Shown here: positions 457-64,000 of the stretch, piece after piece
Position numbering within the stretch: position 1 is the stretch's first letter
How the letters are laid out: each line of letters starts with the position of its first letter
Assembly: GCA_021203205.1 (NCBI GenBank)
Contig: JAJQBQ010000038.1
Location: 21,374 to 85,373, forward strand
DNA: 64,000 bases
Source: Lachnospiraceae bacterium
GTDB lineage: Bacteria > Bacillota > Clostridia > Lachnospirales > Lachnospiraceae
Direction of reading: 5' to 3'
The notes under the pieces: generated by a model
Database searches by the model: none
The model's input: only the letters and a program-made list of their open reading frames with translations
What the model was told of the DNA's origin: nothing
Program-made: the position numbers and the translations under genes

Positions 457-1905
457 ATGTTGGTGGAACTGCGCGTTAAAAACTGCTATATTTTTTCGGA
501 AGAGATCGTTTTCTCCATGAAGGCGGACATGACAAACAAAAAGCTTGCCGCGAACGTACACCGGGGCGCGGGGTGCGACGTCTTAAAAACCGCCTGCATC
601 TACGGCCCGAACAATGTCGGCAAGACCTGCCTGATCAAATGTTTCAAGGGGCTGAAACAGATTTTAAACAACGAACCGACTTCCTTAAACTCCAACATTT
701 TTCTGGATGACGGCACCTGCTCGCTGGGCGTGACCTTTACGGACGGGGATCGGGTGTTTACCTATGATTTTTCCTATAATGAGGAGAAGAAGGAGTTCCC
801 GAAGGAGAAGTTCGCCGAGCTTATCAGCCGGAAGAGCGAAGACGGCCTGCAGAGTGAGAATGGTCGGAGGAACGAGGACGGTCGACAGAGTAAAGATATT
901 CGACGAAGCGAAGACATACGACAGAATGAAGACGGTTGGAAGAGCGGAGATGGACGACAAAGTGAAGATAGTCGGCGGAGTGAAGGCGGACGGCAGAGCG
1001 AGGACAGTCGACAGAACGAAGATAACGGATTTCATGAGAAAGTTTACTGGTATCGCGACACGGCAGCCGGCGTTTATGAGTATGAGGATGACATGCTGGT
1101 GCGCATGATGCCGATTTTGTCCCGCCGAAGCCTCCTGATTCACCAGGTCGACACGTCATCCTTCCCGCTGCTGGATGAGATGAAGCAGCGCATCTTAAAG
1201 ATGGCCTCGGAGATCGAGGTGATCAGCATGGTGAATATCCCGATGCAGAAGACGATTGACCTCCTGAAAAATAAAAATGAGATGCAGGACAAGGTGGTGC
1301 AGTTTATCAAAAACGCGGATCTGGATATGGACAGCATTTCCTACGTGGAGCCGGAGGATATCCCCTGGAAGGACACGTACGAAAACGGGGTACATTCGGA
1401 CGAGGAGGTACTGGATCAGCCGGACCGCGGGTTTGACAGTATGCGGCTGGTGTCCGTCTACAAGGGCGTGCCGGTGCCGAGCCTCCTGTTTGATTCCACC
1501 GGCACGAAGAAAATCGCGGCGCTGGCGAGTTACATCATAGAAGCGCTGGAGCGCGGGCAGACGCTCATCATCGACGAGCTTGACAGCGGCATTCATTTTA
1601 AGCTGACCCGCGCCATGGTTGCCATGTTCAACAATGAGCTGAACCAGACCGCGCAGATGATCTTTTCCGTGCACGACACGCAGCTTCTGGACTGCCGAAG
1701 GCTGCTCCGACCGGAGCAGATTTGGTTCATTCACAAGGACCGGGAGGGTGTGTATGTTTATTCCCTCGCGGATGTCGATGAGTCGAAAAACACCCGGCAG
1801 GAGGATGTGCAGGAGCGCTACCGCCGCGGGGATTTGGGAGCGCTGCCGAATCCGCAGCTGATCGACACGCTGCTGCAGATGTCGGACGCGGGGCGGACGG
1901 GATAA
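457..1905 (+). CDS. RloA-like AAA ATPase with a hexapeptide repeat insertion
   Basis: A 482-residue P-loop ATPase of the ABC/SMC-like class (COG1106, RloA/AAA_15 type). The Walker A motif GPNNVGKT is at residues 50-57. The C-terminal part carries the Walker B region TLIIDELDSGIH, followed by FSVHDTQLLD, the usual switch histidine of this class. Start 457 is preferred because GGGGG lies 8 nt upstream; upstream in-frame starts have no ribosome site. Residues 130-189 are ten hexapeptide repeats of the type RQSEDG, absent from normal relatives and encoded by an 18-bp array. The partner RloB-like gene starts 41 bp downstream. Such ATPase/TOPRIM pairs often act in phage defence, which is an inference here. 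Confidence 0.75.
   Translation: MLVELRVKNCYIFSEEIVFSMKADMTNKKLAANVHRGAGCDVLKTACIYGPNNVGKTCLIKCFKGLKQILNNEPTSLNSNIFLDDGTCSLGVTFTDGDRVFTYDFSYNEEKKEFPKEKFAELISRKSEDGLQSENGRRNEDGRQSKDIRRSEDIRQNEDGWKSGDGRQSEDSRRSEGGRQSEDSRQNEDNGFHEKVYWYRDTAAGVYEYEDDMLVRMMPILSRRSLLIHQVDTSSFPLLDEMKQRILKMASEIEVISMVNIPMQKTIDLLKNKNEMQDKVVQFIKNADLDMDSISYVEPEDIPWKDTYENGVHSDEEVLDQPDRGFDSMRLVSVYKGVPVPSLLFDSTGTKKIAALASYIIEALERGQTLIIDELDSGIHFKLTRAMVAMFNNELNQTAQMIFSVHDTQLLDCRRLLRPEQIWFIHKDREGVYVYSLADVDESKNTRQEDVQERYRRGDLGALPNPQLIDTLLQMSDAGRTG
844..1023 (+). repeat. coding minisatellite, 10 x 18 bp
   Basis: Exactly 180 bp divide into ten 18-bp units, each encoding a variant of R-(R/Q)-(S/N)-E-D-(G/S/I). Units differ by point changes but none by length, so the ATPase frame is kept throughout. 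It lies between the Walker A and Walker B halves of the protein. Confidence 0.9.
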
Positions 1906-1946
1906 CGTTTTAAGTCTGTTTTTTGGAAACTGAAGGGGGGGATTAT

Positions 1947-2585
1947 ATGGCCGCCAGAATTCCGCAGGCCGCCTCACAGAGATCTGTTTTAAAAATATGT
2001 GTGATCTGTGAGGGCTATGAAGAATATGAATACATGCAGCGGCTGGCCGAAATCGGCGCCTGGAATCCGATTTATGCCATCGACCTCGTAAACGCGAAGG
2101 GAAACGGAAATATCCCGGCCCGTTACCAGGACCGCTACCAGAACGGCGATTACGACGCGGTGTTCGCCTTCTGCGACACGGATCAGAAGCCGTTCGAGCC
2201 CTACGATGAGATCAAGCGCAAAATCAACGTGTTCCACGGTGTGGACGGTGCGGCCGATGAAGTGGTCGTGTTTGGGAATCCGTGCACCATGCAGATCATT
2301 ATCCTGCACTGGCGCAACATTATTCTGGAATCTCATAAGAAAAATTTTAACGCGCCGATTCTGGAGGAGGTTCTGCACATCCGCGGCTACCGCGCCCGGG
2401 CGGATCAGCGGGAGCGGCTGTTCCGCAACGTGACGAACCGAAATTTCTGGAAGATGTACGAGCGTGTGCGGGGGCTGCCCGGGAAGGACACGATCCTGGG
2501 GAGCAGCAATTTTGGAAAATTTATCGACCGCATGCGGGACAGCAGCGGAGAATGGACGCGGGCGTTTAATGAATTTTTAATATAA
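1947..2585 (+). CDS. RloB-like TOPRIM-type protein
   Basis: A 212-residue protein with the RloB pattern. There is an N-terminal CEGYEEYEYMQRL motif (family form cEG-tE--Y), a central FAFCDTDQKPFEPYDEI acidic motif (D-x-D) and VVFGNPCTMQIIILHW, which matches the RloB nPcfE-W-l-H block. The RloB fold is TOPRIM-like and probably a metal-dependent nuclease. GGGGGG 6 nt before ATG 1947 sets the start. Pairing with the upstream ATPase matches RloA/RloB couples first seen inside type I restriction loci, but no hsd genes are present here. One difference is that the usual E of PcfE reads as Q or M here, so catalysis should not be assumed. Confidence 0.7.
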   Translation: MAARIPQAASQRSVLKICVICEGYEEYEYMQRLAEIGAWNPIYAIDLVNAKGNGNIPARYQDRYQNGDYDAVFAFCDTDQKPFEPYDEIKRKINVFHGVDGAADEVVVFGNPCTMQIIILHWRNIILESHKKNFNAPILEEVLHIRGYRARADQRERLFRNVTNRNFWKMYERVRGLPGKDTILGSSNFGKFIDRMRDSSGEWTRAFNEFLI

Positions 2586-2593
2586 AAGTTTGC

Positions 2594-2668
2594 CATCCAG
2601 GGAGCACACAGCGCGGAACGATGGGCTTTTATCTCTGGGTACCCGAGTAGCGGGTATGGGAGTTTAGA
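2594..2668 (+). repeat. hairpin-bearing repeat, copy 2
   Basis: A stem TACCCG/CGGGTA around a short loop (2640-2656), followed by TGGGAGTTT, in the same orientation as the copy at 326-386. It begins within 10 bp of the RloB-like stop codon. Part of its left half (CGGAACGATGGGCT) recurs at 25560-25573, just before the DUF512 gene. Confidence 0.5.
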
Positions 2669-2685
2669 GTGAGAAAACCGCCGGT

Positions 2686-3319: not shown

Positions 3320-3477
3320 TATTTTGAAAATTACGGATGAAGACATCTCGTCTTTTGAGAAAAGAATTCAGGGAATCCCGAACGAAGACAGTCAGTCCTT
3401 TCGGGAAGCGATTCAGGGAATTCTGGACGAAGACGTTCAGTCCTTTCGGGAAGCGATTCGGAAAATCCCGGACGGGA
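3320..3477 (+). repeat. 45-bp tandem repeat between NusG-II and Gx genes
   Basis: About 3.5 units of 45 bp begin at 3320, 3365, 3410 and 3455; the core of each resembles GAAGACGTTCAGTCCTTTCG. The array ends exactly where the stop codon of the minus-strand NusG-II gene begins (3478). It is noncoding for the annotated genes, although its period is a multiple of 3. Confidence 0.85.
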
Positions 3478-3891
3478 TCAGTAAGAAACAGCGTCCGGCT
3501 CGTCACCGGTTCCGTCATCTGTCTTCACCTGTATCACCAGCCCGTTCGGGAGACATACGATCGGAAGAGCCGCGCTCCCGGTTGCTCCCATGTGGACGCA
3601 CAGCAGGTCGGGGCAGCTGGCATCGGTCACGGCAATCGTGCCGCCCGATACCTCAATCGTGTTGAAGGAGCCGTCCTCCCCGTAAATTGTGAAGACTCCA
3701 TCTTCCGAGCCGTCCAGGGAAACCGTGCGTATCAGATCCCCGTTCCGGTAGATTTCCGCGTATGTTCCCGCCTCCCGGCCGAGATAAAGGTGCGCGATAC
3801 CGGCCACGCTCGCGATGGCGATGATGATCAGAGTTGCTGTTAATATTACGAACAGAGTTTGTTCGTCTTTTCTCTTATCTTTTAATTTCAT
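3478..3891 (-). CDS. NusG domain II-containing protein
   Basis: A 137-residue protein with one N-terminal membrane segment (residues 12-34) and an extracytoplasmic domain of the NusG_II family. The conserved core TDASCPDLLCVHMG holds the two cysteines typical of this family. These proteins are always found beside Gx transporter and ApbE genes in Clostridia, as here, but their precise function is unknown. The start ATG lies inside a 17-19 bp repeat array that supplies similar ATGs upstream, and no strong ribosome site is visible. Translation initiation may therefore be weak or the start approximate. Confidence 0.85.
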   Translation of the reverse strand: MKLKDKRKDEQTLFVILTATLIIIAIASVAGIAHLYLGREAGTYAEIYRNGDLIRTVSLDGSEDGVFTIYGEDGSFNTIEVSGGTIAVTDASCPDLLCVHMGATGSAALPIVCLPNGLVIQVKTDDGTGDEPDAVSY

Positions 3892-3986
3892 AGTTATCTT
3901 TCAATCATGGTTATTTTTTCAATCATGATTATCTTTCAATCATAGTTATTTTTCGGTTCTATAGTTATCTTTCAATTCCATAGTTC
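3886..3986 (+). repeat. 17-19 bp tandem repeat upstream of NusG-II gene
   Basis: About six imperfect units of the form TTTCAATCATAGTTATC. The first unit overlaps the minus-strand start codon of the NusG-II gene. On the minus strand each unit presents an ATG preceded by GATAAC or AATAAC. Confidence 0.8.
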
Positions 3987-4183: not shown

Positions 4184-5485
4184 TCAGGACTCCGGAAGCG
4201 TATACTCATCCGCGCTCAGCGTAAAAATATCAGCCAGCCCGTCCGTCACATACACATTTTTATCTTCATCCACAAAAATCGCCTCAGCGCCGTAGAGTGA
4301 AAGAAGAGATAGACTATCCTCGTACCCCAGCACAAAACAGGCAGTGGAAAGCGCATCGCTTAACAGTCCGCTGTCGCAGACGACCGTGACCGAAATCAGT
4401 CCGCTGTCGGCCGGGTAACCGGTCTCCGGATCCAGAATGTGGCAGTAACGGGTGCCGTCTTCGATGAAATATTTTTCGTAGTCGCCGGAAGTAGAGATAT
4501 AGCAGGTTCCGGTTACCTTTAAAATGCCAAGATAGCCGTCCTCATCCCGCGGGTCGCGGATAGCGACAGACCAGTCTGTGCCATCCGGCTTTGTGCCCCA
4601 GGTGAGAATGCTTCCGCCGATGCTCACCACCGCGGCGGTCACCGTATCCTCCGCTTCCAGCAGCTCGCCGACCGCGTCACAGCCGATGCCCTTGCCGACC
4701 GCGCCGAGATCCAGCGCCATGCCTGCGGGGACGGACAGAAGATTGCCGCTCAGCGAAAGTCTTTCGTACCCGGTAAAAGGCAGGACAGCCGCGATCTCGT
4801 CCTCCGAGGGAATGCGCGGATTTGACCCGCCGATATCCCAGAGCTGTGAGAGCAGACCGACGGTCGGGTCAAGAGCGCCGCCGCTGTTTAAGGATACATC
4901 CAGAATTTCGGTCAGGTAAGAGGCGAGAGTGTCGGAGAGAGTGATTTCGTATACTTCCGGTTCGGTTTCATAGTATGTGTCACAGGTTGAATCTGAATCA
5001 GTTTCTGAACCTGAGTCATAGGCTAAATCTGAATCAGTTTCTGAACCTGAGTCATAGACTGAATCTGTGTCAGACTCCGAGCCTGCATCAGATTCTGAAT
5101 ACTGGCCGGATCCTGCCACGCAGGACACGGCCGCCTCGGCGTTGATTTGCCCGATTTCCGATGTCTCGACTCTCCAGGACAAGACATCATTTTCCAAATC
5201 CGTCAAAAGTGAGGTCACCTTTTCGCCAGTGTATTCGCCCGTATTGTCATCTGTCGATGAGATTGAGGCGTCAGTATAAAATGTTGCTGTCAGCGTGGTT
5301 CCCATGGCCAGGCTGGTCAGGGTCTGGACATCTGCATCACTGTCGGAAGAACCTGCGCCGGATAAGGATGGAAGTGCGCAGCCCGTAAGCAGGAAGACTA
5401 TCACACAAAGGACAGCACAGCCTGAGAAGGCGGGTACAGCGCCGTGTAGAAGATATCGCTGTGGAATTTTACGAAACAAAATCAT
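4184..5485 (-). CDS. apbE: FAD:protein FMN transferase, lipoprotein
   Basis: A 433-residue ApbE-family lipoprotein that transfers FMN from FAD onto threonine residues of membrane electron-transfer proteins. The signal peptide ends in the lipobox LLTGC. Family blocks seen are DLGAVGKGIGCDAV, VVSIGGSI, STSGDYEKY, HILDPETGYPAD and a DALSTA box with conserved D and T. Start 5485 is chosen because AAGGAAAG lies 9 nt upstream; the longer start at 5506 has none. An acidic S/D/E-rich insertion lies between the N-terminal domain and the YEITLSDTLA helix and contains a 36-bp repeat. Together with the NusG-II and Gx genes it forms a flavinylation module. Confidence 0.92.
   Translation of the reverse strand: MILFRKIPQRYLLHGAVPAFSGCAVLCVIVFLLTGCALPSLSGAGSSDSDADVQTLTSLAMGTTLTATFYTDASISSTDDNTGEYTGEKVTSLLTDLENDVLSWRVETSEIGQINAEAAVSCVAGSGQYSESDAGSESDTDSVYDSGSETDSDLAYDSGSETDSDSTCDTYYETEPEVYEITLSDTLASYLTEILDVSLNSGGALDPTVGLLSQLWDIGGSNPRIPSEDEIAAVLPFTGYERLSLSGNLLSVPAGMALDLGAVGKGIGCDAVGELLEAEDTVTAAVVSIGGSILTWGTKPDGTDWSVAIRDPRDEDGYLGILKVTGTCYISTSGDYEKYFIEDGTRYCHILDPETGYPADSGLISVTVVCDSGLLSDALSTACFVLGYEDSLSLLSLYGAEAIFVDEDKNVYVTDGLADIFTLSADEYTLPES
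4993..5100 (-). repeat. 36-bp coding repeat inside apbE
   Basis: Three units begin at 4993, 5029 and 5065. The first two are nearly identical. They encode 12-residue repeats of the type YDSGSETDSDLA in the ApbE insertion. Confidence 0.85.
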
Positions 5486-5890
5486 AAATATAAACTTTCC
5501 TTGCATTACTTTTTTTGTGCTTAGTAATCTTTAAGACTACACCTAAGGCACTAACCAGGGATAGAACCTGTCAGACAATCTGCCATTTGTTCATACAGGA
5601 ACGGCTCTTTCATGGCTGCCTGACAGGCTTTTCATAGTTGCATTTGCTTTTATTGTTATAACCTGCCGGACATCATAACACAAACAGATGTGAAGTTCAA
5701 TCAGAGAAAAAACGATTGCTGTTTTCAAAGAGAGAAAACGGCTGGCTGCGGAAAGAAAAATTTGGTCGGAGAAAGAAGAGCCTGCCGCATGAAAAAGAAG
5801 CGCCAGTCGCTTGAAAAAGAAGCTTGACTTTTTATTCGTAAAGCTATATAGTTTAGAAAAGTCTAACATGCCAAAAATGAGAGGATGGTG
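5486..5890. other. 405-bp intergenic region between divergent apbE and AAA-PD(D/E)XK gene
   Basis: No gene is supported here. An inverted repeat CCTGTCAG (5567-5574)/CTGACAGG (5620-5627) followed by CTTTTC could form a long-loop hairpin. A good promoter for the rightward gene lies at 5824-5852. The rightmost half is visibly AT-richer than the flanking operons. Confidence 0.5.
5824..5852 (+). promoter_or_regulatory. sigma-A type promoter for the 5.9 kb gene
   Basis: TTGACT, a 17-nt spacer, then TATAGT, ending about 38 bp before the start codon. Both hexamers deviate from consensus by one base. Confidence 0.6.
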
Positions 5891-7902: not shown

Positions 7903-9948
7903 ATGAAATTTTTACGTAACTTATTTCACAACTTCTTCCGTAAATTTTTCGGCGCGGTGAATGTCAAAAAACTTCTCCGCACAGTGGATGTCAGAAAACT
8001 TTTGCGTTTGGCGGATGTTATCCTGGTCATTTTTTTGACAATACAGATTTTTAAAGCGAATGAGCTGACGGGTGAAAATTGCCTGTCAGGGTTGACAGAC
8101 GGTCAGGCGGGGGAATATTTACAGTATTTAAAGAGTACGGTTTCCCGGGCAGGAGAAGAGTTCTTCGGGGATCTGTGGGACAATATTTTTGAAGATGGGG
8201 AAAAAGAGAATTCTGCGGGCGACAGCTCCGCAGACGGAAATGATTCTGCCGAACATGCCGCAGATGGGAGCAGTCAGGAAAATGCCGGAGAGGGTGCTGC
8301 CTGGGAACGGGCGAATGCGGATATCAGTTCCGCAGATGCTTCCGGTTCGGAAGCTTCGGACCCGGATGGAGTCGCAGCTGTGAATTTTGCCGCGGAGGAG
8401 GAACTGACGGCGGAGACAGCGGAGGCAATCGGGAATTTTCGGGAGATTACGGTTCTGATTACGAATAAGGGCGAAGGAGGGTACTGTCACAGTACTCTTT
8501 CTTTTTCTTTCACTGCGGACATCGTCCTCACAACGGGGGATGGCGTGGTGTACTTTGAGGCCGGGGATACGCTGGAGCTGGATGCGGCGGATTATGCGGA
8601 GGGGAATATCATTTCGCTGGAGAGGGCGGCCGATTTTTCCGCAGAGGATGCCGGAGAAGACGCTGTGATTCGGATTGATTTTTCTGCGGAAGAGGGAGAG
8701 AGCGATGTGCGAACTTATGCCGGCACCATGGATATTACCGTGACGGAGGACGGATTCCTGTTAAGAAACACGCTCCCTCTGGAGGAATACCTGCGCTTCG
8801 TCGTCCCGGCGGAAATGCCGGCATCTTACCCGGAAGAAGCTTTAAAGGCACAGGCGATCTGCGCGAGAACCTACGCCCTCCGAACCGCCGTCAGCGGAAC
8901 CTTTGCGGACTATGGCGCGGACATCTCGGATGACACTTCCTGCCAGGTATACAACACCCAGGGCACGGACGAAAGAACCGATGCCGCCGTACTCGCCACG
9001 GCGGGGGAGTACCTCGTGTTCGAAGGTGAGGCGGCAGAGTGTTATTACTTTTCGACTTCCTGCGGGGTGACGACGGACGCCTCCATCTGGGGAGAGGAGA
9101 TTCCATACCTGAAAACGGTGCTTGTGAGTGACGTGTCCGCGGATAGCGCCGGAGGGGACCAGGCAGCGGAAAGTGAAATTTCGGAGCCAGAGAATCCGGA
9201 TCAGGGAGGCGAAGATGATTCGGAGGCCGGAGGAGAAACGGAAGACAAAGGAGAAATGGAAGCCGAAGAAAATACAGTAGCCGGAGAAAAATCGGGAAAT
9301 GAAGAAGAGACAGAAACCGGAAAAGAAACCGGATCTGGAGAAAAATCGGGGAATGAAGAAGATGCGGAAACCGGAAAAAAGTTGGAATCAGAGGAAGAAA
9401 TAAAAGCCGGAGAAGAAACAGAACTTAGCGAATTGCTGAAAATCGAAGAGTATCTTCACCGCTTTCTGGATGAAGAAACCGCCTGCGCCGAATCCGAAGA
9501 AGCCTGGTACCGTTGGGAAGCATCTTTTTCGCCGGCCGATCTCGCAACCCGTCTGGACGGTGAAATCGGAACGGTTTTTGCGGTTGAAGTCACGCAGCGC
9601 GGAAGCGGCGGCGTGGCGGCAGAGCTCACCGTCTACGGCAGCAGCGGGCAGAAGGTGATCGAATCACAGTACGCGATCCGGGAATTCTTTCGCCTGGGGG
9701 ACGGCGCATCCTGCACCAGGCAGGACGGAACCGTGGTGTCGACATCCATGCTTTTGCCGTCAGCCTTCTTCTATATTCAGGCAGAGACGGACGGCACGGT
9801 GACACTTGTGGGCGGAGGCTTCGGCCACGGCTGCGGCATGAGCCAGAACGCGGCGAAAGCGTACGCGAACGGGGGCGCGGATGCGTATGAAATTGTGTCT
9901 TTCTTTTTCCCGGGGACGAAGATATACGCAGGAGACGGGAAGACGTAA
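7903..9948 (+). CDS. spoIID: SpoIID/LytB domain protein, expanded
   Basis: A 681-residue protein with an N-terminal membrane segment (about residues 35-48) and a split SpoIID domain. One block includes LPLEEYLRFVVPAEMPAS, ALKAQAICARTYAL and YYFSTSCG; the final block is GFGHGCGMSQNAAKAYA. SpoIID is the lytic transglycosylase that degrades peptidoglycan during forespore engulfment. Typical SpoIID proteins are 330-400 residues. Here two acidic E/A/G/S-rich stretches (about 80-160 and 410-520) enlarge it, the second containing a 54-bp repeat. The ATG directly follows the 6S RNA without a clear ribosome site, so a later GTG start is possible. It could instead be a vegetative SpoIID-like protein. 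Confidence 0.8.
   Translation: MKFLRNLFHNFFRKFFGAVNVKKLLRTVDVRKLLRLADVILVIFLTIQIFKANELTGENCLSGLTDGQAGEYLQYLKSTVSRAGEEFFGDLWDNIFEDGEKENSAGDSSADGNDSAEHAADGSSQENAGEGAAWERANADISSADASGSEASDPDGVAAVNFAAEEELTAETAEAIGNFREITVLITNKGEGGYCHSTLSFSFTADIVLTTGDGVVYFEAGDTLELDAADYAEGNIISLERAADFSAEDAGEDAVIRIDFSAEEGESDVRTYAGTMDITVTEDGFLLRNTLPLEEYLRFVVPAEMPASYPEEALKAQAICARTYALRTAVSGTFADYGADISDDTSCQVYNTQGTDERTDAAVLATAGEYLVFEGEAAECYYFSTSCGVTTDASIWGEEIPYLKTVLVSDVSADSAGGDQAAESEISEPENPDQGGEDDSEAGGETEDKGEMEAEENTVAGEKSGNEEETETGKETGSGEKSGNEEDAETGKKLESEEEIKAGEETELSELLKIEEYLHRFLDEETACAESEEAWYRWEASFSPADLATRLDGEIGTVFAVEVTQRGSGGVAAELTVYGSSGQKVIESQYAIREFFRLGDGASCTRQDGTVVSTSMLLPSAFFYIQAETDGTVTLVGGGFGHGCGMSQNAAKAYANGGADAYEIVSFFFPGTKIYAGDGKT
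9283..9390 (+). repeat. 54-bp coding repeat in spoIID
   Basis: Two units begin at 9283 and 9337 and encode GEKSGNEE(E/D)(T/A)ETGK-type 18-residue repeats inside the acidic insertion. Confidence 0.8.
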
Positions 9949-15915: not shown

Positions 15916-15955
15916 CCGCGATAAACAGGAAACCTTATACGAATGGGCTATCATA

Positions 15956-16080
15956 TGAAGCAAACCTGAGCACCTGCATGTTTTTTATAAAGTAAACCTG
16001 AGTGGCTGTATGTTTTTGTGAAGCAGACTTGAGTGGCTGCGTGTATTTTTCTAAGAAGCGAATCGAAATGGTCACGTGTG
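15956..16080 (+). repeat. 31-35 bp tandem repeat upstream of tsaE
   Basis: Four imperfect units with cores AAGCAAACCTGAG, AAGTAAACCTGAG, AAGCAGACTTGAG and AAGCGAATCGAAA begin near 15956, 15988, 16019 and 16054. Each ends in a TGTTTTT-like tract. It fills the gap before tsaE up to its ribosome site. Confidence 0.75.
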
Positions 16081-51046: not shown

Positions 51047-51275
51047 AAAACACAGGTTCAGATGGGAGAAACCACGAAAACTGAGAATACGTATCCGGAC
51101 AGGAAAAACCGCAGAAGCTGAAAAACACAGGTTCAGATGGGAGAAAACACGAAAACTGAGAATACGGATTCGGACGGGAAAAACCGCAGGAACCGAAAAA
51201 ACAAAGCCGGATGAGAAAAACACAGAAACTGAACCCCCCGGATCCGGACGGGGAAAATCACAGGAACTGATGCAA
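50986..51275 (+). repeat. about 37-bp tandem repeat across the phoH end and phoH-ybeY gap
   Basis: About eight degenerate units of the form GGATTCGGACGGGAGAAA followed by CACAGAAGCTGAAAAAC. The first lie in the 3' end of phoH. The rest fill the gap; alternate units resemble each other more closely, giving a higher-order period of about 75 bp. Confidence 0.85.
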
Positions 51276-51967: not shown

Positions 51968-53161
51968 ATGTTACAACGAATGAAAAGTAAAAAAGTAGTA
52001 ATTGAGATTATCGCGATCGTGGTTCTGGTGGCGGCTCTTGCGGTTCTGTTTGTGGTATCTGCAAAGAAAAGCAATGAATCGGAGACCCCGACCGATGCGA
52101 CCGAAACGGAAACGGAGACGGAAACCGAGACCGAGACGGAAACCGAAAAGGAAACAGAGACGGAGACGGAAACGGAAACCGAAACGGAAACAGAAACAGA
52201 GTCCGAAACGGAGTCGGAGACCGCGGAAGATTTATCCGGAAAGACCTTAAGCCCCTACACGGGACTTTATATCGATAGTACGGTGGCGACGCAGCGGCCG
52301 ATCGCCATCATGTTAAGTAATATCAAGCAGGCGGTGCCGCAGTCGGGCATTTCCTACGCGGATATTATCTATGAGGCGCCGGTTGAGGGCGGCATCACCC
52401 GGCTGATGGGCATTTTCCAGGATTACATGAGTCTGACAAAGATCGGTTCCTGCCGCAGCTGCAGGCTCTATTACGCCGAGATTGCCGTGGAATATGACGC
52501 CATTTACGCCCACTATGGGCAGTCGGATTACGCCTTAAGTTTTCTGAACAGCTCGGCGATCGACAACTTAAGCGGCACCGCCGGTGTGGGCAGCACGGTT
52601 TACTATCGCACATCGGATCGGGTGGCGCCCCACAATGCCTACACCAGCGCCTCCGGGCTCATTGCGGGGGCAAACCAGATGGGATACTCGATAACTGTCG
52701 ACCCGTCTTCCGCCAGTGTGCCGTTCTCTTTTGTCTCCTACGGTCAGACGGCCACGGTTTCCGGCGGCGGTTCGGCGACAAAGGTGTCTATCAGTTACCC
52801 GCACAACTCGCCGTGGTTTTCCTACGATTCATCAACGGGAACCTATCTGCGCTATCAGTTCGGCTCTGCTCAGGTGGACGATGTGACCGGAACGCAGCTT
52901 TCCGTGACGAACATCGTCATCCAGTTTGTCAGCTCCGTGTACCAGAGTGACAATTACACGCTGGATCTGACCATGACCGGAACCGGCACAGGCTACTATA
53001 TCACCGGCGGTCAGTATGAGCCGATCACCTGGGCCAGAAGTTCTGTCAGTGCGGTGACGACGTATTACGCCGGCGACGGTTCGGAATTAAAGATGACGCC
53101 GGGCAAGACCTGGGTATGCATCGTACAGTCCAGCGCGAAGAGCGGGGTGACGTTTAATTAG
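51968..53161 (+). CDS. DUF3048 domain protein with Thr-Glu repeat stalk
   Basis: A 397-residue protein with an N-terminal membrane anchor (residues 9-33) and a Thr/Glu dipeptide tract (about 42-92, mostly TE repeated). The C-terminal DUF3048 region (YerB type) has PIAIMLSNIKQAVPQSGISYADIIYEA, GGITRLMGIFQDY and RSCRLYYAEIA. It is predicted extracytoplasmic and possibly bound to the wall region, the Thr/Glu tract serving as spacer. Unlike YerB it has no lipobox cysteine. Function is unknown. Confidence 0.85.
   Translation: MLQRMKSKKVVIEIIAIVVLVAALAVLFVVSAKKSNESETPTDATETETETETETETETEKETETETETETETETETESETESETAEDLSGKTLSPYTGLYIDSTVATQRPIAIMLSNIKQAVPQSGISYADIIYEAPVEGGITRLMGIFQDYMSLTKIGSCRSCRLYYAEIAVEYDAIYAHYGQSDYALSFLNSSAIDNLSGTAGVGSTVYYRTSDRVAPHNAYTSASGLIAGANQMGYSITVDPSSASVPFSFVSYGQTATVSGGGSATKVSISYPHNSPWFSYDSSTGTYLRYQFGSAQVDDVTGTQLSVTNIVIQFVSSVYQSDNYTLDLTMTGTGTGYYITGGQYEPITWARSSVSAVTTYYAGDGSELKMTPGKTWVCIVQSSAKSGVTFN
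52101..52225 (+). repeat. Thr-Glu coding repeat (6-bp unit)
   Basis: About 20 units of ACNGAR encode a TE dipeptide run with a few lysine and serine substitutions. Synonymous codon mixing (ACG/ACC/ACA, GAA/GAG) shows it is old or maintained at the protein level. Confidence 0.9.
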
Positions 53162-53381: not shown

Positions 53382-55127
53382 ATGCTAAGCAGAATTATCG
53401 TAGCGGGCGGCGGAGCTTCCGGGCTCATGGCCGCCCTCACCGCAAAACAGCAGGGGGCGGAGGGTGTCCTCATCCTGGAACGGGGCGGTGAGATCGGGAA
53501 AAAGATCCTCAGCACCGGGAGCGGCCGGTGCAATCTGACAAATGAAAATCAGTCCCCGGAATGCTATCACAGCAGTCTTAAAGACAGCTTCAGGCCCGTG
53601 CTTTCGCAGTTTTCAAAGGAGGATACGGTTCGCTTTTTTGAGGAAAACGGACTGTATCTGAAGGCCAAAAACGGCTATTACTATCCCAGAAACGCACAGG
53701 CACTGTCTGTGCGTGATTTTTTGCGCGACTGCTGCCGGAAAGCCGGGGTGCGGGTGGAGCTGAATAAGAAGATTACCGGGGTGACGGAATTAGCCGGAAA
53801 TCGGAGAAACCGGGATATCGGGGAGACGACAGATGTAGCCGGGAATCGGAGAAGTAAGGATATTGGAGTTACGGCTGAAATCGAAAATCGGGAAAAGGGG
53901 AATGGCGAATCCTCTGAAACAGTTCTGAGTGCCGGTTCAAAAACTGGGATTACCGGATTTCAGGTGAGCTGCGAGGACGGTTCCGTATATGAATGCGACC
54001 GCCTGATTCTCGCGGGAGGCGGAAAGGCGGCTCCCCAGACCGGATCGGACGGCAGCATGTTTGCCGTCGCGTGTAAACTGGGGCATACAGTGACCCTGCC
54101 GGTTCCGGCGCTGACGCCGCTCTGTGTGAAGAAGGAAGAGCTGAAGTTCTTTAAAACAGCGGCCGGTGCCAGGGCGGACGCAAGGATCACTCTGATTTTT
54201 GAAAACCATGAAAAAAACAGGGACAAAACTGCGGGAGAAGATTCCTTTTCGGAAGATGAGAGCGGTTCACATTCTATATTCCATGATGTAGAAGATAAAA
54301 ATCCGCTGGAGAAGATTTCGCAGATCAGATACTCTGATTGCGGCGAGATACAGTTTGTGGATTACGGTCTGTCCGGCATACCGGCCTTTAACGTGTCCGG
54401 CGCGGCGGCCCGCGCGCTGGCGGCCGGTCAGTCTGCCGGAAGAGGCGGTCGGATAACAGCCGGAAACAGTGAACAGATAAATTTTGCCGGAAAACATGTC
54501 CGACCGGAAGCCCCGGGAAAACAGACACTTACGGATTCTGCCGGAAAACGTGTCCGACCGGAAGCCCCGGGAAAACAGACACTTACGGATTCTGCCGGAA
54601 AGCGTGTCCGCTCAGAAATCCCGGGAAAACAGACACTTACGGATTCTGTGGGAAACCGTGTCTGGGCTGAGGTGGATTTCCTCCCGGAGATTTCACCGGA
54701 GCTACTGAAAAACCAGTTTGACAGCTATCGGGAGCGATTCCCAGAAGATACCTTCCGCATGTGGCTCCGGGGCTATCTGCCGGCGAAGCTTGCGGAAGCG
54801 GTACTTTCCCTTGTAAAGCTTCCCCCGGCACTTTACCTTCGAAAATGTTCCGGGGAGGAGGCCGAACGACTTCTGAAGGCCCTGAAAGGCAGCAGGTTCG
54901 AGCTGTCGGGAACCGGCTCCTTTGAAAAGGCGCAGACCACGTCCGGCGGGATCGACATGCGCCAGGTGAATCTTGCCACACTGGAATCAAAGCTCATGCC
55001 GGGGCTGTACTTTTCCGGGGAAATTTTGGATGTGGACGGCATCTGCGGCGGGTACAACCTGCAGTGGGCCTGGTCCAGCGGCTTCGTGGCCGGAAGGGCC
55101 GCAGCTGCGGATGCGGCAGGAAAGTGA
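53382..55127 (+). CDS. HI0933/BaiN-family flavoprotein with repeat insertions
   Basis: A 581-residue FAD/NAD(P)-binding oxidoreductase. It has VAGGGASGLMAALTA, KKILSTGSGRCNLTN, LILAGGGKAAPQTGSDG and GLYFSGEILDVDGICGGYNLQWAWSSGFVAGR, all family hallmarks. Normal members have about 410 residues. Here three extra stretches occur: about 135-185 (45-bp repeats), about 270-305 (charged) and about 360-425 (54-bp repeats). The family reduces C=C bonds or acts in unknown steps; the substrate is not known. Confidence 0.9.
   Translation: MLSRIIVAGGGASGLMAALTAKQQGAEGVLILERGGEIGKKILSTGSGRCNLTNENQSPECYHSSLKDSFRPVLSQFSKEDTVRFFEENGLYLKAKNGYYYPRNAQALSVRDFLRDCCRKAGVRVELNKKITGVTELAGNRRNRDIGETTDVAGNRRSKDIGVTAEIENREKGNGESSETVLSAGSKTGITGFQVSCEDGSVYECDRLILAGGGKAAPQTGSDGSMFAVACKLGHTVTLPVPALTPLCVKKEELKFFKTAAGARADARITLIFENHEKNRDKTAGEDSFSEDESGSHSIFHDVEDKNPLEKISQIRYSDCGEIQFVDYGLSGIPAFNVSGAAARALAAGQSAGRGGRITAGNSEQINFAGKHVRPEAPGKQTLTDSAGKRVRPEAPGKQTLTDSAGKRVRSEIPGKQTLTDSVGNRVWAEVDFLPEISPELLKNQFDSYRERFPEDTFRMWLRGYLPAKLAEAVLSLVKLPPALYLRKCSGEEAERLLKALKGSRFELSGTGSFEKAQTTSGGIDMRQVNLATLESKLMPGLYFSGEILDVDGICGGYNLQWAWSSGFVAGRAAAADAAGK
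53791..53880 (+). repeat. 45-bp coding repeat in flavoprotein gene
   Basis: Two units beginning TAGCCGGAAATCGGAGAA (53791) and TAGCCGGGAATCGGAGAA (53836). Confidence 0.75.
54486..54665 (+). repeat. 54-bp coding repeat, about 3.3 units
   Basis: Units at 54486, 54540 and 54594, with a partial fourth at 54648, encode AGKRVRPEAPGKQTLTDS. The first two differ by very few bases, implying recent duplication or gene-conversion-like homogenisation. Confidence 0.95.
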
Positions 55128-55271: not shown

Positions 55272-57620
55272 GTGAAAGACGGATTTATAAAAACAGCGGC
55301 ACTCACACCGCGGATTACGGTTGCGGATACGGTTGCAAACGGAGAGCGGATTCGCGCACTCATGAAGGAAGCATCGCGGAATAACGTTAAAATCGCCGTA
55401 TTTCCGGAACTGTGCATCACCGGCTACACCTGCGGCGACCTTTTCTATCAGAAGCGTCTGCTGGTTAGTGCAAAAGAGGAACTGTGGCGCATTGCGGCAT
55501 ACAGCGGGCAGCTGGACGGCATTTTCTTTGTAGGGCTGCCGTTTGAGGCAGACGGGAAGCTTTACAACATGGCGGCGGCTGTCTCGGGCGGAAGAGTGCT
55601 GGGCATGGTTCCGAAAACCAGCCTGCCGAACTATCACGAGTTTTATGAGGCGAGACAGTTCACCTCTGGCGCGGGGCTTGACAGATACTGGTGCGAGGAA
55701 ATTCCGGAATCCGTTCTTTCGGAATTTTCGCAGTCGGATTCTGACAGATCGAGTCGGAAAAATTCTGAAAACAATACGAAAAAGGTTCATTGCGCGGACG
55801 AATCCCTCGCTGTTTTCCGTGAAAAAACGGACGGCGGGGGGACCTCCGGAACAACAGCCGCAGGGAAAAAAGCCGAAACAGAACAGTCTTTCCGGATTTC
55901 CGACCGGCTGCTCTTTACATCAGACGCCGTACCGGGTCTTACCATCGGTGTGGAAATCTGCGAGGATCTCTGGACGCCGAATCCGCCGAGCATCCGCCAT
56001 GCGCTGCACGGCGCAAACGTTATCGTGAACCTCTCCGCATCCGATGAGGTGACCGGCAAAAGCCGCTACCGCCGGGATCTGGTGGCGGGGCAGTCCGCGA
56101 GGCTTGTCTGCGGCTACATCTACGCTTCCGCGGGGGACGGGGAATCCACGCAGGATGTGGTCTATTCCGGGCATAACCTGATCGCGGAAAACGGACAGGT
56201 ACTGGCGGAGGCGGAGCCGTTTTCCCGGGCGGGAGCAATAGGGAATAACGGTTTTGATACGATTGGCAGAGCGTATAACATTGAAAACGGAAATAATATA
56301 GAGAGTACGGACAGAGAAGCAAGGATTGAAGATAAAAACAGAGCGGATAAGGACAGGACTGTCAGAGATGAATTTAAGGCTGGATATAGGTGCACGGACA
56401 GCCCAGATGCAGAAAATAATGCGGTAAAGGTTTCTGAGAGAAATCACACAATATTAAATTCGAATGGAAGCGGAATCTGCTCGGAGTTTGATATTGACCG
56501 CCTTGTGGCGGAGCGCCGCAGGATGACGACTTTTCCGGCTGTGAAAGAGACTGAATCGGATGGCTATGGTGTGATACGTTTTCATCTGAATCAGGAAGAG
56601 ACCGTACTGACCCGCTATATCGATCCGGCTCCCTTCGTGCCGGGAAAACAGGGCGACCGGGACTATCGCTGCAACGAGATCCTGACGATCCAGGCCATGG
56701 GCCTGAAAAAACGCATTGAACACACAAACTGCAAACATCCGGTGGTGGGCATCTCCGGCGGATTGGATTCCACGCTGGCGCTGCTGGTGATGGCCAGGGC
56801 TTTCGATCTCCTGGGACGTGACCGGAAAGATCTGGTGGCCGTTACCATGCCGGGCTTCGGCACCACGGACCGCACATACGAAAACGCCTGCCGCATGGTG
56901 CGAAGCCTCGGCGCGACCCTGATGGAAATCCCCATCGCGGACGCAGTAAACCGGCATTTTCAGGACATCGGGCAGGATCCGTCCGTTCACGATGTGACTT
57001 ATGAAAACTCCCAGGCCCGCGAGCGCACACAAATATTGATGGATGTGGCAAACCGTCTGGGCGGCATGGTCGTCGGCACGGGCGACCTGTCGGAACTGGC
57101 GCTGGGCTGGGCCACCTACAACGGCGACCACATGTCCATGTACGCGGTGAACTGCTCCGTTCCCAAGACGCTGGTGCGCCACCTGGTGCGCTACTATGCG
57201 GACACCTGCGGAGACGAAGCGCTGGCGGACGTGCTGTATGACGTGCTGGACACCCCTGTCTCGCCGGAGCTTCTCCCGCCGGAAGACGGGCAGATCAGCC
57301 AGAAAACGGAAGATCTGGTGGGCCCCTACGAGCTGCATGACTTCTTTCTGTACTATGTGCTCCGCTTCGGATTTTCCCCCGCAAAGGTCTACCGCCTTGC
57401 CGTACGGGCATTTGCGGATAACGGGACCTATGAGAAGGAAGTCATCCTGAAATGGCTGAAAACATTCTATCGGCGCTTCTTCGCGCAGCAGTTCAAGCGC
57501 TCCTGCCTGCCGGACGGACCGAAGGTGGGAAGCGTTGCGGTATCGCCCCGGGGGGATCTGCGGATGCCGTCGGACGCATCGGCGAGGATCTGGCTGGAGG
57601 AGCTGGAAGAAATAGAGTGA
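55272..57620 (+). CDS. nadE: glutamine-dependent NAD(+) synthetase, expanded
   Basis: A 782-residue enzyme that amidates deamido-NAD. The N-terminal nitrilase-type glutaminase has FPELCITGYTCGDLF (Glu), a KTSLPNYHEFYE lysine and GVEICEDLWTPNPPS (Cys). The C-terminal synthetase has GISGGLDSTLALLV, GTGDLSELALGWATYNGDHMSMY and KVGSVAVSPRGDLRMPSD. Relatives have about 630-680 residues; here two hydrophilic insertions occur (about residues 155-205 and 340-405). GTG 55272 (MKDGFIKTAA) with GGGGGA 7 nt upstream fits family N-termini better than ATG 55257. Confidence 0.94.
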   Translation: MKDGFIKTAALTPRITVADTVANGERIRALMKEASRNNVKIAVFPELCITGYTCGDLFYQKRLLVSAKEELWRIAAYSGQLDGIFFVGLPFEADGKLYNMAAAVSGGRVLGMVPKTSLPNYHEFYEARQFTSGAGLDRYWCEEIPESVLSEFSQSDSDRSSRKNSENNTKKVHCADESLAVFREKTDGGGTSGTTAAGKKAETEQSFRISDRLLFTSDAVPGLTIGVEICEDLWTPNPPSIRHALHGANVIVNLSASDEVTGKSRYRRDLVAGQSARLVCGYIYASAGDGESTQDVVYSGHNLIAENGQVLAEAEPFSRAGAIGNNGFDTIGRAYNIENGNNIESTDREARIEDKNRADKDRTVRDEFKAGYRCTDSPDAENNAVKVSERNHTILNSNGSGICSEFDIDRLVAERRRMTTFPAVKETESDGYGVIRFHLNQEETVLTRYIDPAPFVPGKQGDRDYRCNEILTIQAMGLKKRIEHTNCKHPVVGISGGLDSTLALLVMARAFDLLGRDRKDLVAVTMPGFGTTDRTYENACRMVRSLGATLMEIPIADAVNRHFQDIGQDPSVHDVTYENSQARERTQILMDVANRLGGMVVGTGDLSELALGWATYNGDHMSMYAVNCSVPKTLVRHLVRYYADTCGDEALADVLYDVLDTPVSPELLPPEDGQISQKTEDLVGPYELHDFFLYYVLRFGFSPAKVYRLAVRAFADNGTYEKEVILKWLKTFYRRFFAQQFKRSCLPDGPKVGSVAVSPRGDLRMPSDASARIWLEELEEIE

Positions 57621-58928: not shown

Positions 58929-60638
58929 GTGGCAGTTACAACGATTGATGCGGGAATGTTAAAGAGAATGTTCCTTGCAGGCGCAAGAAATCTGGAAGCA
59001 CAGAAGGAATGGATTAACGAGCTGAATGTTTTCCCGGTACCGGACGGCGATACGGGCACCAATATGACGCTGACCATCATGTCGGCGGTGAAGGAAGTGA
59101 ACAACCTTCCGGAACTTAAGATGGATACGCTGGGAAAGGCGATCTCGTCCGGTTCTCTGCGCGGTGCGCGGGGCAACTCCGGCGTTATCCTTTCGCAGCT
59201 GTTCCGCGGGTTCACGAAGGTGATCCGTCAGGTGGAGGTCATTGACGCGCGCACACTCAGTGAGGCGTGCACCCGGGCGGTGGAGACCGCGTACAAGGCG
59301 GTCATGAAGCCGAAGGAGGGCACCATCCTGACGGTGGCCCGCGGCATCTCGGAAAAGATGGCGGAGATGGCGGAGCAGACGGAGGATATCGAGGCTATCG
59401 CTGCGGCGGTGTTAGAGCACGGCGACAAGGTTCTGGCCGAGACGCCGGAGCTGCTGCCGGTGTTAAAGCAGGCAGGCGTGGTGGACTCCGGCGGACAGGG
59501 CCTCATGCAGGTGCTGAAGGGTGCTTACGATGCTTTGCAGGGTAAGGAAATCGACTATGCGGCCGAGGCGGAGCTTAAAAAGGCAGCTGTGCGCTTCGGT
59601 TACAGCGTCAGCTTTATCATCGAGACGGAACAGCCGCTGACTGCGGAGCAGAAGAGGGAATTCTTAAATTATCTTTCTTCCATCGGCGATTCCGCCGCAA
59701 TCGTATCCGGCGACGGCGCCGTGAAGGTGGAAGTGAAAACGAACGATCCGGGCTTTGCCATTGACCGCGGGCTTACCTTCGGAAAGATTTTCGCCGTATG
59801 TATTGAAAATGTGCGTGATGAAGCAAAAGAACAGGAGTACCGCGACGGAAAGTTCGTTGAAGCTTCGGAAGATGAGAGTGATGAGAATGGCAGCGAAGAC
59901 GGCGCGGAGGACGGCAGCGCGGGCCGGACAGACGGTGCGGAAGGCAGCAGTGCAGGCGAGGAGCCGAATGCTCCCCGCAAGGAAGTCGGCTTTATCGCGG
60001 TTTCCGTCGGCAAGGGCATGAACGAGATATTCAAGGGTCTCGGCGTGGATTATATCATCTCCGGCGGGCAGACCATGAACCCCAGCACGGACGATATGCT
60101 GGGTGCCATCGCGAAGGTGAACGCGGATCACATCTTCATACTCCCGAACAACAGCAACATCGTGCTGGCGGCGGAGCAGGCGAAGAAGCTGACGAAGGAC
60201 AAGGACATCATCGTGATACCGTCGAAGACGGTGCCTCAGGGCATCACCGCCATCATCAACTATATGCCGGATCAGTCCGCGGAGGATAACGCGAAGAACA
60301 TGACGCAGGAGATGCGGCATGTGAAGTCCGGCGAGGTCACCTACGCGGTGCGCGACACCCAGTGGGAAGATAAAACCATCCACAAAGACGACATCATGGG
60401 CATCAATGACGACGGCATCCAGGCCGTGGGCAAGGACATCCACGATACGTCGCTGGAGCTGCTGCGCCTGATGATGGATGAGGAGTCCGAGCTGATCAGC
60501 ATTTACTACGGAAAGGATGTCACGAAGGAGGACGCGGAAGCCTTCGCGGCCAGAGTCGGCGAGGAATTCTCCGGCGTGGACATCGAGGTGAACGAGGGCG
60601 GACAGCCGATTTACTACTATCTGCTGTCGGTGGAGTAA
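58929..60638 (+). CDS. DAK2 domain protein, FakA/YloV-like
   Basis: A 569-residue protein. The N-terminal DhaL-type nucleotide domain has NVFPVPDGDTGTNM and SLRGARGNSGVILSQLFRGF; a middle domain follows; the C-terminal EDD/DegV-like part has VSVGKGMNEIFKGLGVDYIISGGQTMNPSTDD and ADHIFILPNNSNIVLAAEQA. In staphylococci FakA is the ATP-binding subunit of fatty acid kinase, producing acyl-phosphate for PlsX/PlsY. An acidic insertion of about 40 residues (EASEDESDENGSEDGAED) separates the middle and C-terminal parts. The start is GTG 58929 after GGAGG. Confidence 0.9.
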   Translation: MAVTTIDAGMLKRMFLAGARNLEAQKEWINELNVFPVPDGDTGTNMTLTIMSAVKEVNNLPELKMDTLGKAISSGSLRGARGNSGVILSQLFRGFTKVIRQVEVIDARTLSEACTRAVETAYKAVMKPKEGTILTVARGISEKMAEMAEQTEDIEAIAAAVLEHGDKVLAETPELLPVLKQAGVVDSGGQGLMQVLKGAYDALQGKEIDYAAEAELKKAAVRFGYSVSFIIETEQPLTAEQKREFLNYLSSIGDSAAIVSGDGAVKVEVKTNDPGFAIDRGLTFGKIFAVCIENVRDEAKEQEYRDGKFVEASEDESDENGSEDGAEDGSAGRTDGAEGSSAGEEPNAPRKEVGFIAVSVGKGMNEIFKGLGVDYIISGGQTMNPSTDDMLGAIAKVNADHIFILPNNSNIVLAAEQAKKLTKDKDIIVIPSKTVPQGITAIINYMPDQSAEDNAKNMTQEMRHVKSGEVTYAVRDTQWEDKTIHKDDIMGINDDGIQAVGKDIHDTSLELLRLMMDEESELISIYYGKDVTKEDAEAFAARVGEEFSGVDIEVNEGGQPIYYYLLSVE

Positions 60639-62612: not shown

Positions 62613-62641
62613 GGACAAGTCAGTTGACTTGTCCTTTTTTA
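62613..62641 (+). terminator. terminator after rpmF
   Basis: GGACAAGTCA and TGACTTGTCC form a 10-bp stem with a 2-nt loop, followed by TTTTTT. It separates rpmF from plsX. Confidence 0.9.
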
Positions 62642-62666
62642 CAATGTGAGAACACCGGGGACAAAA

Positions 62667-62725
62667 CCTCATGAATCGGGTGCTCGCATCCGAATTCATG
62701 TGCTTTTGACCCACAAAACATGAGG
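62667..62725. repeat. dispersed palindrome P1, copy C with outer arms
   Basis: An inner CATGAATCGG...CCGAATTCATG palindrome like those at 4044 and 45285, here inside outer arms CCTCATG (62667-62673)/CATGAGG (62719-62725). It lies between the rpmF terminator and plsX. Confidence 0.6.
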
Positions 62726-62870
62726 ATGTAGCTGTTTTTCGAAGAAAAACGAGCGGGATCCGAATACTTTCAGAAATTTCGGGAGCGCATGAGTAAACGC
62801 TCCGCGTTGACTCGGCGCGGAGAAATCCATGTGTTATCACAATGCAAATAGAAAGAACGGGGTGCGATTT

Positions 62871-63893
62871 ATGGAAGGCGGAGCCGAAAAGGTAATTGTC
62901 GCGCTGGACGCGATGGGCGGCGACAACGCGCCGCAGGAGGTTGTAAAGGGCGGTGTCATGGCCCTGGAAGAATCGAAGGATATTTATCTGAAGGTGTGCG
63001 GCACAGAAGAGGCCGTGCGGCGGGAACTTGCACAGTATACATACGATGAGTCGCGCCTCGAGGTGGTTGGCTGCACCGAGGTGATCGCCACGGACGAGCA
63101 CCCGGTGAATGCCATCCGCAAAAAGAAGGATTCTTCGCTGGTGGTCTGCATGAATATGGTGCGCAAAGGCGAGGCGGATGCGCTGGTGACCGCCGGAAAT
63201 TCCGGCGCGGTGCTGGCCGGCGGGCAGATCGTGGTCGGCAGGCTGAAAGGTGTGGAGCGTACGCCGTTTTCGCCGCTCATTCCCACCACGAAGGGCATGT
63301 CCCTGCTGCTGGACGCGGGCGCAAATGTGGACGCGAAGCCGTCCTGGCTGGTGCAGTTCGCGAAGATGGGCTCCATTTATATGGAAAATATCGTCGGCGT
63401 GAAGAATCCCCGCGTCGGCCTCGTGAACATCGGCGCCGAAGAGGAGAAGGGAAACCAGCTTGTAAAGGAGACCATGCCGCTTTTGAAGGAATGTAAGAAC
63501 ATCAACTTTATCGGCAGCGTGGAGGCCAGAGATATCCCGTTCGGTGCGGCGGATGTGATCGTGTGCGATGCCTTTGTCGGCAATGTGATCTTAAAGATGT
63601 ACGAGGGTGTGGGCGGAGCGTTGTTTTCCGAGATCAAAACGGGGCTGATGTCCAGCCTTCGCAGCAAGATCGGCGGACTGCTGATCAAGCCGGCTTTAAA
63701 GCAGACCGTGAAAAAGTTCTCTACGGAAGAATTCGGCGGGGCACCGCTTCTGGGGTGCAAAGGCCTCGTGGTAAAGACGCACGGCAGCTCAAAGTCGAAA
63801 GAAATCAAAAACTCCATCTTACAGTGTGTACAGTTTAAGCAGCAGGGGATCAGCGAGAAGATTCAGGCAAATCTGAAGGAAGAGGAAGCGTAA
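62871..63893 (+). CDS. plsX: phosphate acyltransferase PlsX
   Basis: A 340-residue enzyme forming acyl-phosphate from acyl-ACP for PlsY (29.0 kb). It has VALDAMGGDNAPQEVVKG, VTAGNSGAVLAGG, GLVNIGAEEEKGNQLVKE and VVCDAFVGNVILKM-type blocks, and GAPLLGCKGLVVKTHGSS at the end. ACGGGGTG 6-7 nt upstream supports start 62871. acpP and rnc usually follow; the window ends first. Confidence 0.96.
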   Translation: MEGGAEKVIVALDAMGGDNAPQEVVKGGVMALEESKDIYLKVCGTEEAVRRELAQYTYDESRLEVVGCTEVIATDEHPVNAIRKKKDSSLVVCMNMVRKGEADALVTAGNSGAVLAGGQIVVGRLKGVERTPFSPLIPTTKGMSLLLDAGANVDAKPSWLVQFAKMGSIYMENIVGVKNPRVGLVNIGAEEEKGNQLVKETMPLLKECKNINFIGSVEARDIPFGAADVIVCDAFVGNVILKMYEGVGGALFSEIKTGLMSSLRSKIGGLLIKPALKQTVKKFSTEEFGGAPLLGCKGLVVKTHGSSKSKEIKNSILQCVQFKQQGISEKIQANLKEEEA

Positions 63894-63906
63894 GCTTTCG
63901 GCGTTA

Positions 63907-64000
63907 CTGCTGTATGGAAAGAGAGATGAACTTTCACTGGCCTGTTGTATGGAACGGGAGATGAACTTTCCCTTGTCCTGACGTATGGGAAGGAACGGGA
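63907..64000 (+). repeat. 35-36 bp tandem repeat after plsX
   Basis: Units begin at 63907, 63942 and 63978 with CTG-N2-GTATGG and share GAGATGAACTTTC. The array runs off the right edge. Confidence 0.8.

Follow-up and report, generated by a model that had tools for sequence, protein, structure and literature searches.

Dense tandem repeat arrays, insertions in conserved proteins and long spacers set a Lachnospiraceae genome apart from its relatives

The 64,000-nucleotide stretch analyzed here (the window; positions 21,374 to 85,373 of contig JAJQBQ010000038.1, GenBank assembly GCA_021203205.1) belongs to a Lachnospiraceae bacterium whose genome of 3.56 Mb lies in 61 contigs, and it carries arrays of short tandem repeats inside genes for conserved enzymes as well as between genes. 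A sequence-only reading of the window had proposed that these arrays, with in-gene periods that are all multiples of 3, reflect a lineage-specific duplication process under selection against frameshifts, and that hydrophilic insertions in other housekeeping proteins may be decayed arrays. Tandem Repeats Finder (TRF) returned 28 rows in the window, merging into 15 arrays of period at least 5 bp, against a mean of 0.2 arrays in five random sequences sharing its trinucleotide make-up, and the abundance of arrays at this locus is thereby confirmed. Five of the seven in-gene arrays described from the sequence were recovered by TRF, and that at 53791 (45 bp) was found by direct-repeat search as two copies, 73% identical, at 53783-53872. 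The seventh, at 9283 (54 bp), was missed by both searches (for TRF, at score 30) and appears in a codon-phase self-match of the insert alone (offset 54, p = 0.005). The intergenic and gene-edge arrays at 3366, 3875, 15954, 28805, 51010 and 63907 were all borne out by TRF, which added three that had not been listed, at 5772 (22 bp), 29612 (22 bp) and 49313 (18 bp).

The features of the window are given below. An insert is a stretch of at least 8 amino acids (aa) that is extra relative to the ortholog in the one same-genus genome returned by the search; inserts holding N were left out of the tests of repetition and self-match.

826-1032, + strand: two inserts (16 and 47 aa) in an AAA_21 ATPase gene (open reading frame 253-1905), from ortholog alignment; self-match of the second, p = 0.005
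883-933: 18-bp array in the same gene (TRF), whose Pfam AAA_21 match covers residues 114-480
3366-3474: intergenic array, 45 bp x 2.4 (TRF)
3875-3985: gene-edge array, 17-19 bp x 6 (TRF)
4958-5128, - strand: 57-aa insert in an ApbE-family protein, containing a 36-bp array at 4979-5067 (TRF, ortholog alignment)
5772-5823: intergenic array, 22 bp x 2.4 (TRF)
8365-8442, + strand: 26-aa insert in a SpoIID-domain protein, internal repeat not significant (p = 0.11)
9115-9411, + strand: further inserts of 38, 37 and 14 aa in that SpoIID-domain protein, the 37-aa one with the decayed 54-bp self-match
15954-16050: intergenic array, 31-32 bp x 3 (TRF)
26585-26699, + strand: array, 36 bp x 3.2, in a radical SAM/DUF512 protein (TRF)
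28805-28971: array region with units of 14 bp (2 x 7) and 28 bp, partly at a gene edge and partly intergenic (TRF)
29612-29653: 22-bp array within a weak open reading frame (TRF)
49313-49349: 18-bp array (TRF)
51010-51200: 38/75-bp array that begins within the 3' end of phoH and extends into the spacer preceding the gene at 51359 (TRF)
52100-52223, + strand: 6/24/30-bp Thr-Glu tract in a DUF3048 protein (TRF)
53784-53954, + strand: two inserts (21 and 31 aa) with the 45-bp duplication in an HI0933-like flavoprotein
54207-54317, + strand: 37-aa insert in the same flavoprotein, no significant internal repeat
54441-54665, + strand: 75-aa insert in the same flavoprotein, which is a 54-bp x 3.4 array (TRF array 54481-54662)
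55707-55895, + strand: 63-aa insert in the glutamine-dependent NAD+ synthetase (NadE), no significant internal repeat
56223-56438, + strand: 72-aa insert in NadE, borderline internal repeat (p = 0.05)
59886-59954, + strand: 23-aa insert in the gene at 58929-60638, self-match p = 0.025
63907-63992: intergenic array, 35 bp x 2.4 (TRF)

Among the other housekeeping proteins said to carry hydrophilic insertions, the two inserts of NadE and the single one in the gene at 58929 stood up to ortholog comparison. Comparison with plasmid records yielded three short matches, to NAD synthase. The array in the radical SAM/DUF512 protein directly follows the first of two stretches matching DUF512, which ends at residue 331; its ortholog is absent from the same-genus sample. 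The Thr-Glu tract of the DUF3048 protein does not score as an insertion (393 aa here versus 385 aa in the same-genus genome). The array at 51010-51200 begins in the last codons of phoH and runs past its stop; the C-terminus of the protein may thus have been shifted by duplication.

The repeat excess extends outside the window. We sampled 777 kb of the genome, window included, in stretches of at most 20 kb (about a fifth of the total), together with 753 kb of the same-genus genome and 798 kb from 40 other relatives (36 of the same family and 4 of the same order, with one stretch of at most 20 kb each). Arrays were taken as TRF hits of score at least 50, with overlapping rows merged and periods below 5 bp dropped. 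Their density is 21.5 per 100 kb here (167 arrays), against 4.4 in the same-genus genome (33) and 7.0 in the 40 relatives (56), from which our genome differs (Mann-Whitney p = 1.5e-6) and the same-genus genome does not (p = 0.42). For periods of at least 30 bp, the figures are 11.8 (92 arrays), 0.5, and 1.8 per 100 kb, respectively. The window itself, at 23.4 arrays per 100 kb compared with 22.3 in the rest of our first sample of the genome, is typical of it. The density is therefore abnormal relative to both sets of relatives. The same-genus genome is also smaller (1.9 versus 3.56 Mb) and has a lower G+C content (GC) in its sample (0.438 versus 0.513). Coding arrays of 267-bp period form two blocks at L199:8278-13001, unlike the short units elsewhere, and possibly belong to a large repetitive surface protein.

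Within genes, the arrays keep the reading frame. Genes were called in both genomes with an identical, simple codon-usage script that trims some starts, and the period is divisible by 3 in 73 of 75 coding arrays. The claim that all in-gene periods are multiples of 3 thus holds save for two exceptions in this larger sample (the frame exceptions in the smaller first sample had periods of 16 and 22). In genes longer than 200 aa of which the array makes up less than 40%, the count is 60/61. Between genes, there is no such bias, the 70 arrays splitting 27/19/24 by period modulo 3, which suggests that the duplication process does not see the frame and that selection most likely does the sorting. Since the same-genus genome obeys the same rule (22 of its 27 coding arrays are in frame), frame-keeping itself is ordinary and the excess density is the finding. 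Arrays with an in-frame period are about equally dense in coding (12.7 per 100 kb) and intergenic DNA (13.3), with 12.4 inside the 159 paired genes described below (24 in 194 kb); the coding/intergenic ratio is 0.96, with a rough 95% range, calculated by hand, of 0.6 to 1.5. Much coding sequence therefore seems to tolerate additional copies once the frame is kept, and a quicker decay of intergenic arrays could contribute to the equality.

The excess is accompanied by insertions in conserved proteins. From 167 reciprocal best hits with the same-genus genome, 8 under 100 bits were dropped, leaving 159 ortholog pairs. Our genome has 122 insertions (3,515 aa) in 51 of these genes, against 30 (380 aa) in 20 genes in the reverse direction. 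They occur, among others, in valine-tRNA ligase (62 aa), a MetH-like methionine synthase (82, 20, and 36 aa), DnaX, SpoIIIAA, polyprenyl synthetase, and UvrB (123 aa). UvrB was matched at E <= 1e-60 in 105 genomes of a 110-genome family sample: 99 other genomes gave one near-full-length piece and 5 a partial one, and ours alone gave two pieces flanking the insert. The second NadE insert is shared by none of 25 aligned relatives; in the loop holding the first, stretch L095 carries its own acidic insert, a smaller one lies close by in L079, and the inserts of other relatives are located elsewhere. When polarized with outgroups in 6 genes, 11 of 15 insertions were gained here. The open frame of RpoB (G000:C11:45582-49241) is 1,413 aa long, compared with 1,288-1,339 aa in six relatives whose frame is complete. 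The spacing between its core pieces is that seen in relatives, and the surplus length lies outside the matched core.

Intergenic DNA is swollen as well. In 72 conserved pairs of neighboring genes, the spacer is longer here than in the same-genus genome in 58 and shorter in 10, with medians of 164.5 and 36 bp (p = 1e-9). The median coding fraction per stretch is 0.764, against 0.872 in the same-genus genome and 0.861 in the 40 relatives; our genome differs from these relatives (p = 8e-5) and the same-genus genome does not (p = 0.26). Hence, the inflation is not confined to proteins, and ours is the genome that departs.

Several tests connect the insertions to tandem duplication. Self-similarity beyond codon shuffles (p <= 0.05) was found in 26 of 62 inserts of at least 20 aa, against 5 of 63 same-genus segments of like length, and of the 52 inserts with a single clear best phase, 43 have their strongest self-match in codon phase (17/17 for scores of at least 16). 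The idea of decayed arrays thus applies to a part of the inserts, the remainder showing no significant internal repetition, and we conclude that many inserts, not provably all, arose by local tandem duplication and then diverged. Compared with simulated clean duplications, low-copy arrays much more often end in partial copies (medians of 0.28 versus 0.00 of a period; p = 5e-12, for 58 arrays and for the 159 of 194 simulated ones that were detected), a pattern pointing toward either repeated slippage or short homologies already in place.

The inserts are rich in Ser, Gly, Asn, Glu, and Asp and poor in Leu, Ile, Met, and Phe. Their GC is 54.7%, that of intergenic DNA 43.2%, and third-position GC is 0.529 in inserts and 0.696 in the rest of the genes; this last value, set against that of intergenic DNA, suggests that weak selection on codons still operates. 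Predicted structures are in keeping with inserts that spare the fold. In an AlphaFold2 model of the flavoprotein built with 39 homologs, 379 of 581 residues have a predicted local distance difference test score (pLDDT) of at least 90, and the model matches the 416-aa flavoprotein 2i0z with a target TM score of 0.88. The score is below 50 at residues 142-187, 286-313, and 356-419 (with a single exception in the last stretch), and all three stretches overlap inserts. The NadE model (mean pLDDT, 70.5) also falls below 50 at both inserts (residues 150-209 and 324-396), but conserved stretches at 610-635 and 745-770 are of low confidence too, so that low confidence alone does not mark an insert in NadE. 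Low pLDDT at the inserts is read here as predicted disorder, and the models of these two enzymes suggest that the copies surviving in genes probably lie in surface loops.

We propose, with a probability of about two in three, that short tandem duplication proceeds at a raised rate in this lineage, probably through slipped-strand replication, and that its products are sifted by selection on frame and fold. Slipped-strand replication would make short duplications, with units mostly of 12-95 bp, without regard to frame, and selection would purge the copies that shift the frame or break an enzyme core. In genes, surviving copies would sit in surface loops, where the repeats would diverge until many inserts look non-repetitive; between genes, the same process would leave arrays of any period. 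The density excess and the modulo-3 bias support the lineage-specific process envisaged in the sequence-only reading: neither a normal repeat density nor a chance-level distribution of coding periods was found in our samples.

A number of observations weigh against this proposal. A gene caller that requires open frames and trims starts favors the modulo-3 result, and frame-breaking arrays tend to be filed as intergenic. The two genomes compared are distant (best-hit identity, 29-91% over the 159 pairs), and the polarity analysis covers 6 genes, in which 3 of the 15 insertions look ancestral and lost in the same-genus genome and 1 is undecided. Only 13 of the 122 insertions overlap a TRF array by at least 30% (3.9% under random placement), and of the 24 coding arrays in paired genes, 9 lie within a scored insertion and 15 do not; therefore, the link from arrays to insertions rests partly on the decay test. 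In that test, 36 of 62 inserts lack significant repetition and the 63 control segments were picked at random rather than as loops, and the codon-phase count has no control for ordinary codon periodicity. In its simplest form, with one clean duplication per array, the proposal is ruled out by the simulation, partial-copy ends being far commoner than expected. Array-rich stretches also exist in some relatives, with 8, 6, 5, and 4 arrays per 20 kb in L238, L164, L231, and L249, respectively. Finally, a search of protein records for strain variants found none among the best 120 of 1,146 flavoprotein matches, the 119 others measuring 396-501 aa, against 581 aa here, and the closest of them being 47% identical.

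Single stretches with 4-8 arrays per 10-20 kb occur in L238 (G064), L249 (G089), L164 (G016), L231 (G041), and L095 (Tb.RUG.215), and the periods in L249 include 60-175 bp. These relatives may be further lineages sharing the trait.

The alternative that we take most seriously, while still judging it unlikely, is that duplication occurs at an ordinary rate and that selection against small insertions is relaxed, for instance in a small population, so that the products of slippage become fixed by drift in loops and spacers. It would account for spacers and proteins being inflated alike, for the equal density of in-frame arrays in genes and between them, and for the presence of all eight genome-maintenance genes that were searched. 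However, frame and aligned enzyme cores are preserved, and the 69.6% third-position GC outside inserts, relative to 43.2% in intergenic DNA, is more easily reconciled with selection that is still effective on codons. Selection could also be acting by favoring long charged or Ser/Gly-rich disordered loops for which tandem duplication is only the raw material. The composition of the inserts is that expected of such loops, but mere tolerance in loops would produce it equally. Selection at the protein level cannot explain everything, since spacers swell too and the periods of intergenic arrays are indifferent to frame; we regard this adaptive account as improbable.

The presence of in-frame inserts in many unrelated conserved genes is reminiscent of mobile or palindromic elements that jump in frame into coding sequence, such as those of Rickettsia. 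Yet, of the 85 inserts that reach 15 aa, only 4 have a match at another place in the 777-kb sample, and only 10 of 13,861 array pairs match each other, several of them being neighbors or simple repeats; on these two grounds, we discard a mobile element as the source of the inserts. Moreover, inserts are no more palindromic than codon shuffles (mean longest arms of 3.5 versus 3.0; p = 0.2), and a tandem periodicity of their own is present in the 26 inserts noted above. It is just as hard to credit an artifact of assembly or binning. It would fit the run of unknown residues (X) that interrupts a padded protein of L200, and the apparent frame break in uvrB, but long open frames are kept in the 51 genes with insertions, the flanks can be aligned, the repeats are in phase, many contigs are involved, and the genome was scored as 99.46% complete and 0.33% contaminated.

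Loss of a genome-maintenance gene could raise the duplication rate preferred here, but MutS, MutL, RecJ, SbcD, UvrB, PolA, XseA, and RecG were all matched in a search limited to these eight, which rules out the loss of any of them. MutS and RecJ have no insert relative to the same-genus genome. By the same comparison, inserts are present in MutL (53, 50, 31, and 12 aa), XseA (26 and 14 aa), and SbcD (101, 46, and 8 aa), and PolA has 44, 15, and 10 aa extra relative to PolA from a genome of another family. The two longer SbcD inserts lie inside the nuclease part, the 101-aa one containing a 45-bp x 3.1 array; on alignment, the protein nevertheless seems to retain what are presumably the residues of its metal-binding motifs. 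SbcD (L221:4093-5808) has 571 aa, against 360 aa as called in the same-genus genome, and its frame of 586 aa exceeds those of the best matches in other genomes, none of which is longer than 455 aa. Only SbcD and UvrB are outstanding in length relative to the listed relatives: MutL (753 aa; next, 730) and RecG (770 aa; next, 755) are the longest among the matches listed by a small margin, and PolA (941 aa; relatives up to 968) and XseA (460 aa; up to 469) are within range. In uvrB (L194:13800-14140, G000:C7), the first 50 or so residues lie in another frame than the rest, an apparent break near the start that could be an assembly error or a damaged gene. As a speculation to which we give little weight, this lineage would be a bacterial counterpart of the proteome inflation of Plasmodium, in which in-frame duplications survive as often in genes as in spacers and pad core enzymes, SbcD, MutL, and UvrB among them, with disordered loops. 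Padding of these repair proteins might in turn impair the repair of loops and hairpins and thereby sustain a high rate of duplication, in a self-feeding loop.

Bacterial minisatellites, or variable-number tandem repeats (VNTRs), have head-to-tail units of tens of base pairs (roughly 10-100 bp), keep the frame within genes, and are commonly attributed to slippage. Our arrays resemble them in both respects, with 167 in the sample (92 of them of period at least 30 bp) and 73 of 75 coding ones keeping the frame, but they are about fivefold denser than those of the same-genus genome, and the surplus falls in conserved enzymes and spacers. A second parallel is found in Plasmodium falciparum, in which conserved proteins, including housekeeping enzymes, carry low-complexity, hydrophilic, probably disordered loop inserts for which slippage has been proposed as the maker. 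The likeness lies in hydrophilic inserts that spare the fold, with disorder predicted here for two enzymes and insertions in 51 of 159 pairs. Ours, however, is a bacterium with minisatellite-like units, and its inserts, at 54.7% GC, do not reflect an extreme base composition.

Other bacterial systems are more remote. Rickettsia palindromic elements also add in-frame segments to unrelated genes, but they are described as dispersed families of about 150 bp that integrate (PMC10969869); the inserts here are locally tandem and no more palindromic than shuffled ones, with no shared family seen. PARCELs are likewise intragenic tandem repeats within bacterial open reading frames, built on one horizontally spread, palindromic and amphipathic 25-residue motif and found in frames without assigned function (PMC2996958). 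Compared with that description, the units here differ from array to array, as the scarcity of matching array pairs shows, and the inserts are poor in hydrophobic residues. Because they share no seen family, the inserts are members of neither group. Small variable segments within bacterial species are intragenic and frame-keeping and affect 3-6% of genes, with minisatellites at 2-4% of loci (PMC2884548), whereas our 51 of 159 genes with insertions come from a comparison between distant genomes. A tree-of-life survey states that bacteria typically have fewer short tandem repeats than expected (PMC12699852). In the open-licence literature, which lacks most subscription journals, we found no description of such a pattern in Lachnospiraceae or as a proteome-wide process in bacteria.

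This genome offers a natural experiment on the growth of bacterial proteins, in which fresh arrays, decayed arrays, and non-repetitive loops stand together in enzymes of known fold and an unpadded relative of the same genus is available for comparison. For annotation, it carries a warning that large hydrophilic inserts in proteins such as UvrB, MutL, and NadE need not be new domains. Two further questions also become testable: how heavy a load of insertions a core proteome can bear, and whether short tandem duplication is enough by itself to lengthen proteins and reduce coding density.

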